IMG/VR virus record: IMGVR_UViG_3300021420_000007
Span: 1-51,748 of that record
Direction: 5' to 3' (one strand)
Source: a virus
DNA: 51,748 nt
Made by a program: the position numbers and the translations under genes. The first letter of the stretch is position 1. Every line of letters begins with the position of its first letter. Below are positions 2,934 through 29,451 of the stretch, piece by piece. Under the pieces are notes generated by a model. That model did no database searches. It was not told where the DNA came from and saw only the letters and a program-made list of their open reading frames with translations.

Positions 2934-3968
2934 ATGACCCGCATTGCAATTGACCACGCTGACCTTGGCCGCCGTTATGGAATCCATTTCATGTCGGGGC
3001 TTATGCAGGAAGCTCGCGGCATGTCCCTCATGGACAAGTCCATGAGTTTCGACGCGCAGCCGACTTTGATTACTTCGGCCAATGCCGGTATCCCGTCGCT
3101 GTTCACGACCTACGTTGACCCCAACATTATCGAAGTGTTGGTGAGCCCAACCAAGGCTGCGGAACTGTACGGTGAAACCAAGAAGGGCACGTGGGTTGAT
3201 GATACGGCCATGTTCTTGATGGCGGAACGTACTGGTGAAGTCGCGAGTTACGGCGATTTCTCACAGGACGGAATGTCGAACAGCAATGAGAATTTCCCGC
3301 AGCGTCAGAGCTATCACTATCAGACCAATACGCGTTGGGGTGAGCGCGAGTTGGCGCGGGCGGCGGCAGCCAAGATTGACAAGGCCAATCAAGTCAACAT
3401 GGCCTCGGCATTGGCACTCAAGAAATTCCAGAACCTGACATATCTGTACGGCGTCGCCGGATTGCAGAACTACGGCGGGACGAACGATCCTAGTTTGCCG
3501 AATCCCATCAGCGTGACGGGCACTTGGTTCGGCGCCGCAGGGGACTTCATCTATGCTGACGTGCTGCGTCTCGTGCAGCAAATCGTGGCACAGGGCAATG
3601 GTTTGATTGACGCGGAAACGGTGTATACGCTTGGGATCAGCCCGGGCAATGCGTTGAACTTCAACAACACGAACCTGTACAACGTAAACGTGTACACGCA
3701 GATCAAGACGAATTTCCCCAACCTGAAAATCGTCACGGTCCCTGAATTCGCCATTAACGGCGGCGGCGGCGCGAGCGGCACGGAATTCGTTCAGTTGATC
3801 GCGGACAACGTCGAGGGGCAGCGTACCGTCGAGGCGGCTTTCACTGAGAAAATGCGCGCCCATGCCATCGTGACCAAGACCAGTTCTTGGGAACAGAAGA
3901 AGTCACAGGGCACTTGGGGTACGATTGTTTACCGGCCGGTTTTCGTGGCTGCAATGGTGGGCGCGTAA
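2934..3968 (+). CDS. Major capsid protein (DUF2184 type)
   Basis: A 344-aa protein with the features of DUF2184 capsid proteins: 'EARGMSLMDKSMSFDAQP' near the N-terminus, 'PNIIEVLVSPTKAAELYGE', an 'NFPQRQSYHYQT' strand, 'FQNLTYLYGVAGLQNYGG', and 'TNFPNLKIVTVPEF' near residue 260. The fold is HK97-like in this family. It forms the icosahedral shell. A purine-rich ribosome site (ACAGGAAACACGAAC) precedes the ATG, as expected for a strongly expressed gene, and two hairpins follow its stop codon (3992-4013 and 4021-4051). Confidence 0.88.
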   Translation: MTRIAIDHADLGRRYGIHFMSGLMQEARGMSLMDKSMSFDAQPTLITSANAGIPSLFTTYVDPNIIEVLVSPTKAAELYGETKKGTWVDDTAMFLMAERTGEVASYGDFSQDGMSNSNENFPQRQSYHYQTNTRWGERELARAAAAKIDKANQVNMASALALKKFQNLTYLYGVAGLQNYGGTNDPSLPNPISVTGTWFGAAGDFIYADVLRLVQQIVAQGNGLIDAETVYTLGISPGNALNFNNTNLYNVNVYTQIKTNFPNLKIVTVPEFAINGGGGASGTEFVQLIADNVEGQRTVEAAFTEKMRAHAIVTKTSSWEQKKSQGTWGTIVYRPVFVAAMVGA

Positions 3969-3986
3969 GCGTCCGTTGATTTCAAC

Positions 3987-4586
3987 ATGACAGGCTGTTG
4001 CAACGGGCAGCCTCAATACAGCGCCCTCAGTGCTAACGCATGGGAGGGCGCTTTTGCGTCGCCGCCCCTTCTACAAAATCTTGAATTACGAGCCCCATTT
4101 GCGTCAGTTACGGCGGGACCTAACGCGCCTCGGTCAAACGTACCGGGCACTATTCAAGGAAATTTTGGTTGGCTGAATTCGGCCACGGGCCTCGTGAACA
4201 ATACGCGCATTGCGTCTGATGATGTGCGCGGCGTCGTGATCCCATTCCGCTCAATGAGCGGCGTCAATGGGGGCGTTGTAGGCGGCCCTAGAGGGCTAGC
4301 AGGGCCGCATGCATCTTGGTCATGGGAGTTTTTAGACTGCAGCGTGTCGCCGCCTGTGCTGCGTGTACGGCCGGGTTTGATAGTTACACTACATGCACGC
4401 GGTAATTTTTGGCTGCGATTCGCAGGCGGCGCGCTCTACGGCAACAAAGTATATGCGTCGCTTACTGACGGTTCGGCTATCTCAGGGCCAGCGGGCGGCG
4501 CGGAGTTGACGCCATTTCTGGTATGCTCTACTGCGCCGCCAGGTAGTTTGGCAATTGTTTCGAGTGCGGCATTTTTCACACCATAG
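3987..4586 (+). CDS. Second cement-like protein, paralogue of the protein at 1991
   Basis: A 199-aa protein. Residues about 60-160 have the cement layout: 'GNFGWLNSATGLVNN' corresponds to 'GNFAWVGPAGQVSQS' in the 1991 protein, and 'RPGLIVTLHARGNFWLRF' corresponds to 'PEGFMVTLFDGGDFWAYF'. I infer a second decoration or capsid-stabilising protein. The start is uncertain: the ATG at 3987 has no Shine-Dalgarno sequence and two perfect hairpins lie inside the first 22 codons, so translation may begin further in. The N-terminal 50 residues have no counterpart in the larger paralogue. Confidence 0.55.
   Translation: MTGCCNGQPQYSALSANAWEGAFASPPLLQNLELRAPFASVTAGPNAPRSNVPGTIQGNFGWLNSATGLVNNTRIASDDVRGVVIPFRSMSGVNGGVVGGPRGLAGPHASWSWEFLDCSVSPPVLRVRPGLIVTLHARGNFWLRFAGGALYGNKVYASLTDGSAISGPAGGAELTPFLVCSTAPPGSLAIVSSAAFFTP
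3992..4013 (+). other. Hairpin 1 downstream of the capsid gene
   Basis: AGGCTG (3992-3997) pairs perfectly with CAGCCT (4008-4013) across a 10-nt loop. It begins 24 bases after the capsid stop codon and is followed by a stronger hairpin. Confidence 0.5.
4021..4055 (+). terminator. Terminator-like hairpin after the capsid gene
   Basis: GCGCCCTC (4021-4028) pairs perfectly with GAGGGCGC (4044-4051), loop of 15 nt, followed at once by TTTT. This is the shape of a partial rho-independent terminator or mRNA 3'-end stabiliser. It lies 53 bases past the capsid stop but inside the reading frame of the next gene, so attenuation rather than full termination is likely. Confidence 0.5.
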
Positions 4587-4605
4587 ACGATAGGAGTTAA
4601 GGACC

Positions 4606-22737: not shown

Positions 22738-23249
22738 TTACATTCAAAGCGGCGTAAATATTCTACCGCTCGCATGAGGCCGGCGAGATTATCGCCCAAG
22801 TTTCCGATGGCTAAATTACACGGTCCGCATAGCCACCCCCGAAAAATTTTTGTTTTGTGGCAGTGGTCTAACGCAAAACCTCGCGAAGTAGAAGGACGCT
22901 GGCAGCATTCGCAATTTATAGGTTCCGGTCGTGTTGGCTCAGGCAGTCCCATTTTTTCCCGTCGATGCGCGCGACTTTGAAGTTTCTTTTTCTCACCGTA
23001 CAATAATTTATATTTAGCATTATACGCCGCAGTGTATGCGCGTCCTTCAGGGCTAGCTCGCCACATTCGTTGTCGTTCGTTTAATTTATCGCGATTGCGT
23101 TGTTGATGGCCAGCGCGCCAAGCTTTATGTTTCTGTGTTTTACGGTGTTCTCGCGCCTTCGCCGCCCTAACTCCATTTGCCGTAACGGGGACCGCGCCAT
23201 CCTCCGCGGGCGAATATCGGCCATCCTTTTGCATAGGTCGGTAAGTCAT
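22734..23249 (-). CDS. HNH endonuclease, recombination endonuclease VII type
   Basis: A 171-aa protein. The first ~100 residues are basic and helical; the C-terminal part has the endonuclease VII zinc/HNH pattern: 'CECC', then 'ALDHCHKTKIFRGWLCGPCN' and 'IGNLGDN'. It overlaps the polymerase 3' end by 83 nt in another frame and the Rz stop by 4 nt on the opposite strand. A close relative lies at 39906, sharing 'MGLPEPTRP' and the whole HNH block. I infer a free-standing homing-type endonuclease rather than a packaging resolvase, though the latter is possible. Confidence 0.75.
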   Translation of the reverse strand: MTYRPMQKDGRYSPAEDGAVPVTANGVRAAKAREHRKTQKHKAWRAGHQQRNRDKLNERQRMWRASPEGRAYTAAYNAKYKLLYGEKKKLQSRAHRREKMGLPEPTRPEPINCECCQRPSTSRGFALDHCHKTKIFRGWLCGPCNLAIGNLGDNLAGLMRAVEYLRRFECN

Positions 23250-25419
23250 TCATGCATGCCTCTAATTGCTCAACCGTAGTATTATACTGCATACCTTGCT
23301 CTATCACAATTTCATCATAGGTATGCATTACTATATTAAGCCCTTCGGCGGCACAATTCTCCATCCCGTGCATCATGATATCGCGCGCAGTGCCGCCGGT
23401 CGCGTTCTGCGTGAGCACGCCGCCGTACAAATCCATTTGTATCCACGCGGGCGGGCCCTTTTCGGGGTTCGTGTTCCAGCCCCAATAGGTAAGCGCGAGT
23501 TCCCACGGGCTCGCCCATTGCCGCGTGGCCGGCGCGAGGCGCGGAGTGTGGTACTGAATAAATCGGCCGCTCGGCAATACCATGTACAGACAATCATCAG
23601 AGCCAAGCTGAAACAATATAAGCCCTACGCGGAAGCACTGCCCGGGATTCTGCACGGCGCGAATTGCGGCGCCCTCAAGGCCGTACAGTTCCTCTCGCTC
23701 GGGTTCATAACTGCCGTCCGGCGCGCGATTGAATTTGTTGCGTGTCTGGCCGCCCCAAAATTCAACCGTGTTGGGAACAGTACTACGGTAATCGAGGATA
23801 GCCGCCTTAATTTCAGCATCGCTGTCATAATATTCGTCCGCGCCAAATTTCTTCCATCCATTGATCCATGACGCATAACCGCCGCTCAATTTTGCTAGCT
23901 TACCTTGCTGGCGGAGCGGATGGTGCTTGCCGCCTTTGATCGATAGAAGGCGGCCCGCGGCGTCATACGTGGCTATGCCACCCGTGTCAGTTCGATGTTT
24001 GACGAAGTCCTCAAATGGTACGCCGGTCATGCGCGCAATCTGCGCTTCGTAAATCATGCCGTGCGTATGATGCACGTCGAGCACCCATTGTTCACCCGCG
24101 AGTGCGGCAAGTACCACATCCTCAATTGCGGAATAATCTGACGATACGAGTTGCATGCCAGGGCCGGCCACGAACAGCGAACGCAAGCAATTGTTGACCA
24201 CATCGAGAGCGCCAAGATTCGGATAAGTCGCCTCAACCGCCGCGAGGCTCCGTGTAGCTATAACAGCCAAGGCGGCGTCTACTTCTTCGGGCGTATGCCA
24301 GTCGCCCTTGTATAAATTCGCCGGCTGTGGACCATACCCACCTGTCCGGCCGTGGTGCGTGGCGTGCATCATGTACATACCGTGCACTCGGCCATCGCTC
24401 GCAGTCATGGCGCGCAGAGCATACAATTTTTTGACGCTCGCACTGCCGAGCAATTGGCGAATGGTAAGAGCGCGCAGCACGGGCAGGTTTCTGTGAGGCT
24501 CAAGCGGCCCGGGCGTTAGACGCTCAATCATCGCGTCAATTGTTTTTTCGGTCATGTCATACATGTCGACGCCGCGCGCTGCGCACCAGCCTTTAAGCTG
24601 TTGCAGTTCAGTCGGTTCAATGCCGCCTGTTAATGTGCGGAATTCTTCGCCGTAACGATGGTACGATTGCTCAACGATGGATATGCAATCCTCAATGCCC
24701 TTGGAATCAACCGCCATACCGCGGTCATTGATTTGCTGATCGAGAAACCATCGGCGCTGCTCATCGGGCGGCAAATTGGGCACGCGCTCGGACACCTGAT
24801 ACTCGCTGCGTATGTCCGTTAGATTGTAGGCTTTGTATTTCGCCCATTCTTCAGGTGCTTCATGCGGTAGTGTAATGACGCGTGAATCTTTCTTAGTCGG
24901 CTGTCGCGGAATGCTGAACAGCTTCATGAGCCGGCCGCCGTCCTTGTCCTTTTTGATAGGCGTGTCAAGAACTTCAACCACGTTGGCGAGTTTACCCGGA
25001 TAGCCGGCCGCGCGGCATTTGACTGCGCTGCACCGCTGTTGCTCGATATGCAGGCGCGGCCAGTGCCATTTCGGCACACAAAAATAGTTCCACGCTTCGC
25101 GCTCGAATTCGGCATTGTGCGATTCGAGCAAGCCGCCGCGCTCGACGTGGTCGAACAGCGGCGCGAGTATGTCGAAAGACTGGCCGTATTCCCACTGGAC
25201 GGCAAACGCGCCGCCGTACTGTGGCATCAAATCATAAGCGAGTAACTGCGGGTAGAACGTCTCATGTTCGACGTAGACGCGCGTGCCGACAGCTTCAAGG
25301 CCGCGTTTTTGATTAGAGAAGCCGGGTAGCGATTCCCAACGTCCTAAGTTATCGTCGGCCGGACACGTCCATGTGTAGCCGGCAAATGACACAGTTTCAA
25401 AATCAGCTACAGGTATCAT
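23167..25419 (-). CDS. DNA polymerase, family A
   Basis: A 750-aa protein. The 3'-5' exonuclease motifs are Asp6/Glu8 in 'DFET', 'SHNAEFERE' at 100-108, and 'TDIRSEYQ' at 201. Polymerase motif A is 'SSDYSAIE' with Asp428; motif B is Arg503-x3-Lys507 with Tyr515; motif C is 'HTYDE' with Asp702. All catalytic residues expected of a proofreading family A enzyme are present. The 5' nuclease domain is absent, as usual in phages. The ATG follows the TAG of a 34-codon open stretch without a gap, so its translation is probably coupled to what lies upstream. It replicates the phage DNA. Confidence 0.9.
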   Translation of the reverse strand: MIPVADFETVSFAGYTWTCPADDNLGRWESLPGFSNQKRGLEAVGTRVYVEHETFYPQLLAYDLMPQYGGAFAVQWEYGQSFDILAPLFDHVERGGLLESHNAEFEREAWNYFCVPKWHWPRLHIEQQRCSAVKCRAAGYPGKLANVVEVLDTPIKKDKDGGRLMKLFSIPRQPTKKDSRVITLPHEAPEEWAKYKAYNLTDIRSEYQVSERVPNLPPDEQRRWFLDQQINDRGMAVDSKGIEDCISIVEQSYHRYGEEFRTLTGGIEPTELQQLKGWCAARGVDMYDMTEKTIDAMIERLTPGPLEPHRNLPVLRALTIRQLLGSASVKKLYALRAMTASDGRVHGMYMMHATHHGRTGGYGPQPANLYKGDWHTPEEVDAALAVIATRSLAAVEATYPNLGALDVVNNCLRSLFVAGPGMQLVSSDYSAIEDVVLAALAGEQWVLDVHHTHGMIYEAQIARMTGVPFEDFVKHRTDTGGIATYDAAGRLLSIKGGKHHPLRQQGKLAKLSGGYASWINGWKKFGADEYYDSDAEIKAAILDYRSTVPNTVEFWGGQTRNKFNRAPDGSYEPEREELYGLEGAAIRAVQNPGQCFRVGLILFQLGSDDCLYMVLPSGRFIQYHTPRLAPATRQWASPWELALTYWGWNTNPEKGPPAWIQMDLYGGVLTQNATGGTARDIMMHGMENCAAEGLNIVMHTYDEIVIEQGMQYNTTVEQLEACMNDLPTYAKGWPIFARGGWRGPRYGKWS

Positions 25420-25524
25420 CTAGAATGGAATGCAATTTTCATCGCAATACGGCCACGAGAGACGTCCGTCGGGCAACGTTAATATCTCATGGCCGTCGCA
25501 ACAATACCGCTTCGCCGGCTCCAG
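25420..25524 (-). other. In-frame open extension after the SSB stop, Cys-rich, ending Ile-Pro-Phe
   Basis: Thirty-four sense codons follow the SSB UGA in the same frame and end with TAG directly abutting the polymerase ATG. The encoded stretch has 'RYCCDGHEILTLPDGRLSWP' then 'YCDENCIPF'. Bacterial SSBs end in an acidic tip closing with Ile-Pro-Phe, and this ends Asp-Glu-Asn-Cys-Ile-Pro-Phe. The only independent starts would be CTG at its first codon or an internal TTG. It could be a readthrough tail of the SSB, a small zinc-binding protein with a rare start, or the remnant left by a nonsense mutation or read error in the SSB gene. Confidence 0.5.
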
Positions 25525-26484
25525 TCAACCTGTATACCCGTCCACGCGCAATTGATCGATTGTCCAGCCTCTTGCCAGATAGGAATCAATCGGGAAGCCC
25601 TTATGCGAAGGGCGCGTAGCGGGTGGTTGCGGAGGCATGGCGGTTGCAGCGGGCGCGGCCGGAACGGTGGGTATAGTAGGTATCCCCATAATGGCTGGCG
25701 CGGGCACAACGGCCGTAGGGGCGGCAGCGGGCGGCACAGCAGCCGGAAGCGCCACGTACGGCGCAGGCGCAGTAGCCGGAAGCGCCGCAGAAAGCGCAGG
25801 AGCGGCCGGCACGGCGGGCGCAACAAAGCCTGCCGGAGGCGTGAGTGACGCGCCAGGAGGCAGAGCGCCGCCGAATTTGCCCTTTACATCGACTCCCGCC
25901 GACTCGATCCGTTTACCATAGCCTTTCAGGCCGACGGCCGCATGATTAAGGTAAATTCCAGGCGAATTACCTGTGTTGCCGGCCATTGTGCCAGCAACCT
26001 GCACATAGTCGCCTGGCAGCACGGCGTTTGGGGTGTCGAGCGCGGGCGGGTTCTCGACGTTGCGGGACGCATCATAAATCTTCGGTGCAAACTGCGAGGA
26101 AAATTTCAAGATCCAGCAACCCTTGTGGCCTTCACGGTCGCAGGGCGCAACCTTAGATTTGCTCTTAGGCGGAATGCGTGTCGAGTCGCCATCGGTAATC
26201 TTCCATGAGAATTCTGGCGCCATAGCGGGCGACTTGTCGCCGCCCGCAAACGCTGCGTGAGCAGTCGCCCACGCAAGTTGGCCCCAACCCGGCTCATTGG
26301 CGAAGTGCGCCTGCGTCTTTGGGACGGCCACGCCGAAGTCGTACATCACATACGGTTTACCGGCGTCAACACCCTTTTTATAAACGAGGGGATTGCCGTC
26401 AAAGTCCGTGTCGCGCGGCTCGTACAATGAACCCCAAACAAGCTGCCCTGGCGGCGTGGTGAATTCTACTGCTTTAGTCGTCAT
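25525..26484 (-). CDS. Single-stranded DNA-binding protein (DUF2815/gp2.5-like)
   Basis: A 319-aa protein. Residues 1-200 resemble phage SSBs of the DUF2815/gp2.5 group: 'GQLVWGSLYEPRDTDFDGNP', 'KPYVMYDFGVAVPKTQ', 'ILKFSSQFAPKIYD', 'VLPGDYVQVAGTMAGN' and 'GIYLNHAAVGLKGYG'. Residues ~210-290 are a Pro/Ala-rich linker. The last 25 ('FPIDSYLARGWTIDQL') form a short helical motif. The stop is UGA followed by C; beyond it the frame continues (see 25420-25524). An AGGAG site precedes the ATG. It lies in the replication operon next to the polymerase. Confidence 0.68.
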   Translation of the reverse strand: MTTKAVEFTTPPGQLVWGSLYEPRDTDFDGNPLVYKKGVDAGKPYVMYDFGVAVPKTQAHFANEPGWGQLAWATAHAAFAGGDKSPAMAPEFSWKITDGDSTRIPPKSKSKVAPCDREGHKGCWILKFSSQFAPKIYDASRNVENPPALDTPNAVLPGDYVQVAGTMAGNTGNSPGIYLNHAAVGLKGYGKRIESAGVDVKGKFGGALPPGASLTPPAGFVAPAVPAAPALSAALPATAPAPYVALPAAVPPAAAPTAVVPAPAIMGIPTIPTVPAAPAATAMPPQPPATRPSHKGFPIDSYLARGWTIDQLRVDGYTG

Positions 26485-28224: not shown

Positions 28225-28414
28225 TTCGCTTGCTCCTAGCTATCTGTTGTTCAACCGTCGGCTCATATTCGACACACGTGGCAACCACGTACCCTAAATG
28301 CGTTCCGTCAATCGGATTGACCCATCGGTACGTGTTGCCTTGCACGTGCTCAGCCGCTACTCCCGCACGGAAATAGTACCGGGCGGGCGGGTTGGAACTC
28401 ACGAAGCTAAGCAC
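28217..28414 (-). CDS. Small protein, unknown
   Basis: A 65-aa protein overlapping neighbours on both sides (8 nt and 16 nt). It contains 'YYFRAGVAAEHVQGNTYRWV' and 'LGYVVATCVEYEPTVEQQIA'. No family is recognised; the compact operon position supports it as real. Confidence 0.45.
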   Translation of the reverse strand: MLSFVSSNPPARYYFRAGVAAEHVQGNTYRWVNPIDGTHLGYVVATCVEYEPTVEQQIARSKRSA

Positions 28415-29388
28415 TTATCGACAGCCGCGTTGACACTCGCAATCAATGGCGTATTGTTGATTAGTTGCGCCATTTCTTCAGGCTTAAGGCCAATACCCGC
28501 AAGTATGGTAGTGACTTGATCCGCCGTTAGTTTGCCGTCAGCCGTCGCTTTTTGAATTTTCTGCATGAGGCCGCGAAAATCAATCGCCGCAGGCACGACC
28601 GCAGCCAGGACAGCAGCGCCAGCCGTAGGGCTTAGAAGGGGCGGCGGAGGCGGCGCAATATTTGCAACCGTTGGGGCGGCCGCAGCCAGGACAGCAGCGC
28701 CAGCCGTAGGGCTTAGAAGGGGCGGCGGAGGCGGCGCAATATTTGCAACCGTTGGGGCGGCTAACGTGGCTAGGATGCCAGTAGCATGCGAAACCGTCGC
28801 AATCGCGGCAGGTTGCGCGACAGCGAACGCATTCGGTGCACTCGACATGTTTCCCGGTTTGTTTTGTGCCTCGCAAGCAGTCACAAGATTTGCGTCAACG
28901 CCGCGCTTGTTTTTCCATGAACCGTCAAGTTTTTTAGCGCGGTTCAATGCATGGATGCGCGAATCCCACGGAAAACCGCGTTTGTCCAATTCGGCAGACA
29001 CAGCCGGGCCGGGCGGCGCTGGCGTCGCAGGCGGCAGAGGGGATGTTGCCGTATGATGAAACGTCACGTCTACGGAAATCGGAGGCGGCGCGGCAGGCAA
29101 TCCAACTGCGGTTGTCAATGCCGTCACATTGCCAGCGTCGTCAATTTCAACCTCTACATCGTCGTCGCTGACAATATCGGCTATGGTTGATGGAGGCGCG
29201 GGTGGCAAGCTCGGCATAACGTTTGCGGTGAGTATTACAGGAGCATTCATTGGATCAACAGGTAACGGCGCTTCTATCAATGTTCCAAGCGCGGCGGCCG
29301 GCGGCGTCTCTGATAGACTTCGCAAAAATGTCGAGATTCGATAGAGTTGTTCAGGCGAATCGGTCGCCGTGTCGATCATAATTTGCAC
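28399..29388 (-). CDS. Pro/Ala-rich protein with tandem duplicated segment, replication operon
   Basis: A 329-aa protein from GTG 29388, chosen because GGAG stands 8 nt upstream and a promoter lies at 29423-29451; a TTG at 29451 would overlap that promoter. The middle holds 'KRGFPWDSRIHALNRAKKLD' followed by 'KNKRGVD', a motif I recognise from unnamed phage proteins near SSB and nuclease genes. Residues ~205-265 carry a perfect 27-residue tandem duplication ('APTVANIAPPPPPLLSPTAG' plus seven). The C-terminal 70 residues are helical. It is the first gene of the leftward replication operon. Function unknown. Confidence 0.6.
   Translation of the reverse strand: MQIMIDTATDSPEQLYRISTFLRSLSETPPAAALGTLIEAPLPVDPMNAPVILTANVMPSLPPAPPSTIADIVSDDDVEVEIDDAGNVTALTTAVGLPAAPPPISVDVTFHHTATSPLPPATPAPPGPAVSAELDKRGFPWDSRIHALNRAKKLDGSWKNKRGVDANLVTACEAQNKPGNMSSAPNAFAVAQPAAIATVSHATGILATLAAPTVANIAPPPPPLLSPTAGAAVLAAAAPTVANIAPPPPPLLSPTAGAAVLAAVVPAAIDFRGLMQKIQKATADGKLTADQVTTILAGIGLKPEEMAQLINNTPLIASVNAAVDKCLAS
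28600..28761. repeat. Perfect 81-bp tandem duplication
   Basis: 28600-28680 and 28681-28761 are identical, 81 bp (27 codons) each, inside the Pro/Ala-rich protein gene. In-frame length and zero divergence suggest a recent slippage duplication. Confidence 0.95.
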
Positions 29389-29422
29389 TGTATTGACTCC
29401 GTTTGGTATTGACGTAGGGCGG

Positions 29423-29451
29423 ACTTTAAGGCAACCTGACGCGTCTGTCAA
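29423..29451 (-). promoter_or_regulatory. Promoter of the replication operon with dyad at -35
   Basis: On the minus strand TTGACA (29451-29446), 17-nt spacer, TAAAGT (29428-29423). The -35 is the left half of the dyad TGACAGACGCGTCA (29450-29437). It lies 35 nt upstream of the GTG at 29388. Confidence 0.5.

Follow-up and report, generated by a model that had tools for sequence, protein, structure and literature searches.

A phage gene for a single-stranded DNA-binding protein (SSB) very likely ends in a programmed leaky UGA, readthrough of which would give a minority of SSB molecules extended by a C-terminal tail. The gene lies in the window, by which we mean the whole 51,748-nt stretch of viral DNA analyzed here, and the UGA occupies positions 25527-25525. 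We also consider it likely that the tail is a mobile module, combining a zinc knuckle with an SSB tip, which is borne by unrelated gp2.5-like, ERF and RecT-type proteins, and is attached to them only by lineage-specific recoding, so that selection would act to hold the tipped form at a fixed minority. The preliminary description of this locus had proposed that readthrough of the UGA leads into a tail with the Ile-Pro-Phe end of SSBs. This is the best-supported reading, but two elements of that proposal, the coupling of the tail to the polymerase and the parallel drawn with bacterial SSBs as more than a resemblance, were not supported. The features of the region are listed in Table 1.

Table 1. 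Features around the SSB stop codon in the window.
Feature	Position	Strand	Description and evidence
Family-A DNA polymerase	23167..25419	-	phrog_17, E=1.1e-53; ATG abuts the TAG of the tail in the window
TAG stop of the extended product	25420..25422	-	Open reading frame
Putative readthrough tail, 34 codons	25423..25524	-	C-x2-G-H knuckle half, linker, W-P-x-C-x3-C, terminal Ile-Pro-Phe; alignments, dN/dS
Predicted RNA stem-loop, candidate readthrough stimulator	25449..25496	-	12-bp outer stem; z -3.1 (fold), z -2.9 (synonymous-codon control)
TGA stop of SSB, followed by CTG	25525..25527	-	Proposed readthrough codon; GGY TGA CTG invariant in 8/8 distinct members
SSB gene	25525..26484	-	gp2.5/DUF2815-type ssDNA-binding/annealing protein; 0-frame product 319 aa

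The SSB gene and the frame behind its stop codon

Residues 4-317 of the SSB matched the profile of Gp2.5-like ssDNA-binding and annealing proteins (phrog_7011, E=1.3e-51). Foldseek matched the predicted fold to the DUF2815 structures 4klk and 4jg2 and to the SSB of phage Enc34 (5odl/5odj; E 1e-6 to 5e-5), and the variant OB-fold of gp2.5/DUF2815-type SSBs was evident in the model. The protein is not a bacterial SSB; it belongs to the T7 gp2.5/DUF2815 type, and its tip has the bacterial one in common by resemblance only. In the AlphaFold model the pLDDT of the core was mostly 80-90, and the confidence in the tail was low, too uncertain for zinc geometry. An acidic C-terminal tail has been described as a hallmark of gp2.5/DUF2815-type SSBs, where it influences the preference for ssDNA over dsDNA (PMC5686142). 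The 0-frame SSB of 319 aa ends QLRVDGYTG, without an acidic tip, and a tip is present only past the TGA, where the in-frame peptide LEPAKRYCCDGHEILTLPDGRLSWPYCDENCIPF comprises 34 residues, includes four Cys and ends DENCIPF. Thus, the frame described earlier as staying open for 34 codons to an Ile-Pro-Phe end is indeed there, at the positions given. TGA terminates approximately 30 of the 62 ORFs that a crude ORF caller reported in the window; as about half of the ORFs stop at this codon, TGA is not reassigned, and a reassigned UGA was ruled out. Elsewhere in the replication cluster (28399-29451, minus strand) there is a proline-rich protein of 350 aa with two copies of the direct repeat APTVANIAPPPPPLLSPTAGAAVLAA.

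The group of viruses with this UGA included the window and seven further distinct IMG/VR viruses (L002, L003, L004, L006, L007, L008 and L015; L015 and L016 are identical over 6.6 kb and were counted as one member). The SSBs of the relatives with TGA CTG and an in-frame tail were 54-76% identical. In a tree of the SSB core all eight members fall in one clade, and so they do not represent eight independent events. The junction GGY-TGA-CTG is kept in all eight, and in seven (the window, L002, L003, L004, L006, L007 and L008) the tail behind it is intact and in frame over 34-39 codons, with the aligned pattern CC-x-G-H...W-P-x-C-x3-C-I-P-F/W. The tip reads C[DT]x[DN]CIPF, with one member finishing in CIPW, so that an acidic run followed by Ile-Pro-Phe, as in bacterial SSBs, was found in the group. 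For close pairs, dN/dS of the tail was 0.047/1.29 (L004/L008), 0.035/0.70 (L004/L007) and 0.052/0.26 (L002/L003), which argues strongly for purifying selection at the amino acid level. The coding constraint postulated for the 34 codons was therefore borne out, and the alignment with relatives, in which the UGA is conserved together with the frame behind it and dN/dS is low, supports readthrough. The tail proteins of L004 and of L007/L008 are nearly identical despite far more diverged SSB cores, a hint that this part of the gene has recombined. The two ligand pairs, C-x2-G-H and C-x3-C, are conserved in 11 of 11 aligned tails, and we infer from these four Cys/His positions that the tail binds zinc.

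Two lineages of the clade depart from this pattern. L015/L016 keep TGA CTG GA, and a frame slip inside the tail moves WPDCTEDCIPF to the +1 frame, which suggests that the tail there is either dispensable or lost. The slip (about 3985-4000) occurs at GCAGGCAGGG and is the same in contigs from two metagenomes. L020, which is nested in the clade by its SSB core (clade support 100/100), has no tail and carries TAA in place of TGA; judged by this position, it is a case of tail loss. Among tail-less relatives and homologues from cultured phages the stop is mostly TAA.

It had also been suggested that the tail exactly fills the gap to the polymerase gene and couples the two. The abutment is real in the window, but it is peculiar to it: in L002, L004, L006, L007 and L008 the tail is followed by a gap or by an HNH gene. 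We therefore rejected the coupling; since the downstream neighbor varies between relatives, the tail belongs to the SSB gene and not to the polymerase.

The RNA spanning the TGA and the whole tail folds more stably than dinucleotide shuffles in the seven intact members (z -3.1, -3.5, -4.8, -3.5, -4.0, -2.9 and -2.7), and in the broken tail of L015 the same test gave z -1.0. As coding alone could produce such an excess, we resampled synonymous codons. This control gave z -2.9, -2.3, -2.9, -2.1, -2.3, -1.1 and -0.8 (mean about -2.05), against a background mean of -0.06 (sd 0.97) in 57 control windows inside SSB genes. Hence, the RNA after the UGA appears to be selected for structure beyond the protein, as a 3′ stimulator would need, weakly so in L007 and L008, where there is little structure past the coding effect. 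The main stem in the window starts approximately 28 nt past the UGA, farther than is usual for a stimulator. The downstream hairpins differ among members in distance, size and loop, and the number of codons between the UGA and the first Cys varies too. An RNAalifold consensus of the tail region showed little covariation energy, and the synonymous-codon control is more telling.

The same tail in other annealing genes

We scanned viral and genome contigs with DNA patterns for the last 11-12 tail codons that were blind to frame and context. These motifs were derived from the UGA clade, and therefore other types of tail would be missed. Outside the UGA group the pattern scan gave three places (L037, L040 and L042), and a profile search added L128. 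All four tails sit in the 3′ part of annealing genes, past a stop or shifted in frame, and neither an in-frame fusion nor a stand-alone copy of the tail was found by the pattern and profile searches of viral and genome contigs.

L040 encodes a distant gp2.5-like SSB that ends GGT CCC TAA C, and the tail NGRQCCAGHLGYGSDDWPDCDEDCIPF is in the +1 frame, where the eight codons from the upstream stop to the module include no start codon. L037 encodes an ERF protein (PF04404, E 2.6e-21) with the tail in the -1 frame; the 0-frame heptamer C CCC CCT is located 21 nt upstream of the module, and ATC is the sole conceivable start in the frame of the tail. A tRNA-Trp (CCA) gene (3225-3295, minus strand) also lies within this ORF, in the linker that immediately precedes the -1 shift site. 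L042 and L128 are two loci from one Rhizobium MAG, a RecT-like gene (phrog_561, E 1.8e-08; Pfam RecT only 0.11) and a RecT gene (PF03837, E 6.9e-34), respectively. In both, C CCT TTT in the 0 frame lies 6 nt upstream of the module, and the tail occupies the -1 frame, which offers no start codon; in L128 the upstream stop of that frame is just five codons away from the module. The frequency of such heptamers in background ORFs is 0.0034 per codon, which amounts to roughly 2% chance occurrence for L128. The two genes can be aligned in their C-terminal halves only (45% over 239 columns). Their N-terminal cores differ, and a C-terminal cassette with the shift site and the tail is common to both, suggesting that the cassette is exchanged. 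A single indel could account for L040 alone, and not for the dual-coding L037, L042 and L128. Given the absence of start codons, shifting is the simplest way to join the tail to the protein in these frameshift members; by homology with them, the simplest way in the UGA group is readthrough.

Two further loci are less clear. In L011, the sister of L040 (100/100), the +1 frame after GGT GTT TAG ends ...GDSIDDDIPF*, and only one other comparable tip-ended short frame was found in the 1.67 million codons of all loci scanned; as a GTG start is possible there, L011 constitutes weaker evidence. In L148 (Agrobacterium phage 7-7-1) the -1 frame of the gp2.5 gene ends GSWSAALNDCIPF* near 2345-2360, with W and DCIPF at the spacing of the module. 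No slippery heptamer was found for this frame, which is only a lead and may represent a remnant or chance. The other eight gp2.5-like genes of cultured phages showed no hidden tail, and a tblastn search of sequenced phages and plasmids with the tail as query gave chance matches only. In 398 genomes of the phylum of the Rhizobium MAG the tail profile identified only the two loci of that MAG, with the remaining matches unlike the module, and of 80 ERF loci the query locus alone has the tail. We found no relatives of the RecT-type gene in viral contigs and none of the SSB in genome contigs.

Proposed mechanism and rival explanations

Conservation, coding constraint, RNA structure past coding and start-less shift sites in relatives can be seen in the sequences themselves, and the scheme we propose from them is as follows. 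Most ribosomes would stop at the UGA and yield the gp2.5-type SSB without an acidic tip, while a minority would decode the UGA by a near-cognate tRNA, probably that of Trp. Readthrough would add 35 residues, the one encoded by the UGA and the 34 of the tail, which would provide a zinc-knuckle-like motif (C-x2-G-H / C-x3-C) and an acidic tip resembling that of bacterial SSBs (...DENCIPF). The rate of recoding, i.e. the level of the leak, would be determined by the UGA-CUG context and the 3′ RNA stem-loop. The tips of bacterial SSBs have many binding partners among replication and repair factors, and by this likeness the tipped minority may bring replication or recombination partners to the phage ssDNA, with the untipped majority coating and annealing it. 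Phage RecT proteins have been reported to recognize the host SSB tip (PMC10711431). Other phage annealing proteins would gain the same tail by +1 or -1 frameshifting, and the selected trait would be the recoding-based access itself, and hence a fixed ratio of the two isoforms.

The main rival to readthrough is termination followed by reinitiation at the adjacent CTG, which would make a separate peptide of 34-39 residues that acts alone through its SSB-like tip. CTG directly follows the TGA in all eight members and could be a rare start codon, no second NTG is common to all of them, and unusual starts seem to exist in the group, as the polymerases of L003 and L007 appear to begin at non-NTG codons. 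(In L007 the polymerase ORF lacks an NTG near its start, 3146-3173, where ATT is the likely initiator, and in L003 ATG is also missing at this place, 4557-4593.) We regard this explanation as unlikely. If the CTG served as a start, we would expect changes to ATG, GTG or TTG and a variable spacing, but neither is seen, and no consistent Shine-Dalgarno sequence was found upstream of the CTG among the UGA members. Moreover, the module frame has no start in L128, L042 and L040 and only ATC in L037, and the selection on RNA structure past coding also speaks against a separate peptide. Decoding of the UGA as selenocysteine fits the C that follows it, as in known bacterial Sec sites, and the presence of a hairpin downstream; yet the inconsistent distance, size and loop of that hairpin, the variable number of codons from the UGA to the first Cys, and the lack of an Rfam SECIS match or of a bSECIS at a fixed distance make it highly improbable, and the homologous tails are reached by frameshifting, without any decoding of UGA.

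That the region acts as an untranslated RNA element only, such as a terminator or a regulatory hairpin, could be argued from the strength of the hairpins past the stop. It is just as hard to credit, since their shapes vary while the amino acid motif is constant, substitutions between close pairs are mainly synonymous, and the module is present in other frames of unrelated genes. As for a nonsense mutation, a read error or a decayed gene end, L015/L016 show that frame damage happens. However, the eight distinct viruses, which come from several metagenomes, all have TGA CTG and none has a sense codon there, and purifying selection downstream is strong. The mutation or error offered earlier as an alternative is refuted at the SSB locus, unless one assembly artefact is common to all eight, and we give this explanation almost no weight.

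Significance and relation to known systems

Readthrough is rarer than frameshifting in bacteria and in their dsDNA phages. Here three kinds of recoding apparently give access to one homologous tail in proteins that are unrelated but act in a single pathway, and three such routes make a strong natural argument that selection maintains the ratio of tipped to untipped molecules. It becomes testable how phages dose the contacts of SSB tips with replication or recombination factors of the host or of the phage. Since gene callers overlook such tails entirely, hidden ends may be present in more of the annealing and SSB genes of phages.

In the literature searched, which was that outside subscription journals, we found no SSB or annealing protein for which recoding had been described. 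The phage tail-assembly chaperone and dnaX are recoded genes in which access to a frame is conserved while the shift site changes. The tails described here are alike in this trait, but the proteins are of another class, and three types of recoding would serve one homologous module. The tip of bacterial SSBs (DDDIPF) similarly places acidic residues before a terminal Ile-Pro-Phe; it is not homologous, and here a Cys/His knuckle is added and the bearers are gp2.5, ERF and RecT proteins. T7 gp2.5 and Enc34 ORF6 (DUF2815) have their fold and family in common with the SSB of the window, and their acidic tails serve partner contacts and ssDNA preference (PMC5686142), but these tails are in frame on every molecule, whereas the acidic Ile-Pro-Phe tip here lies past the stop. 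In Listeria phage PSA a +1 shift at CCC_UGA has been proven (PMC5009743), and the slip of tRNA-Pro by +1 at a CCC ahead of a stop is what we propose for CCC_UAA in L040; in PSA it is the capsid and tail proteins that are extended, whereas L040 would gain an SSB-like tail. The closest likeness in the use of a single leaky UGA is that to the coat/A1 proteins of Qbeta, where a minority phage protein with the same start is extended at its C-terminus (PMC8310308). Qbeta, however, is an RNA phage and A1 a virion protein, while the extension proposed here would place a short tip-bearing module on a replication and recombination protein of a dsDNA phage.
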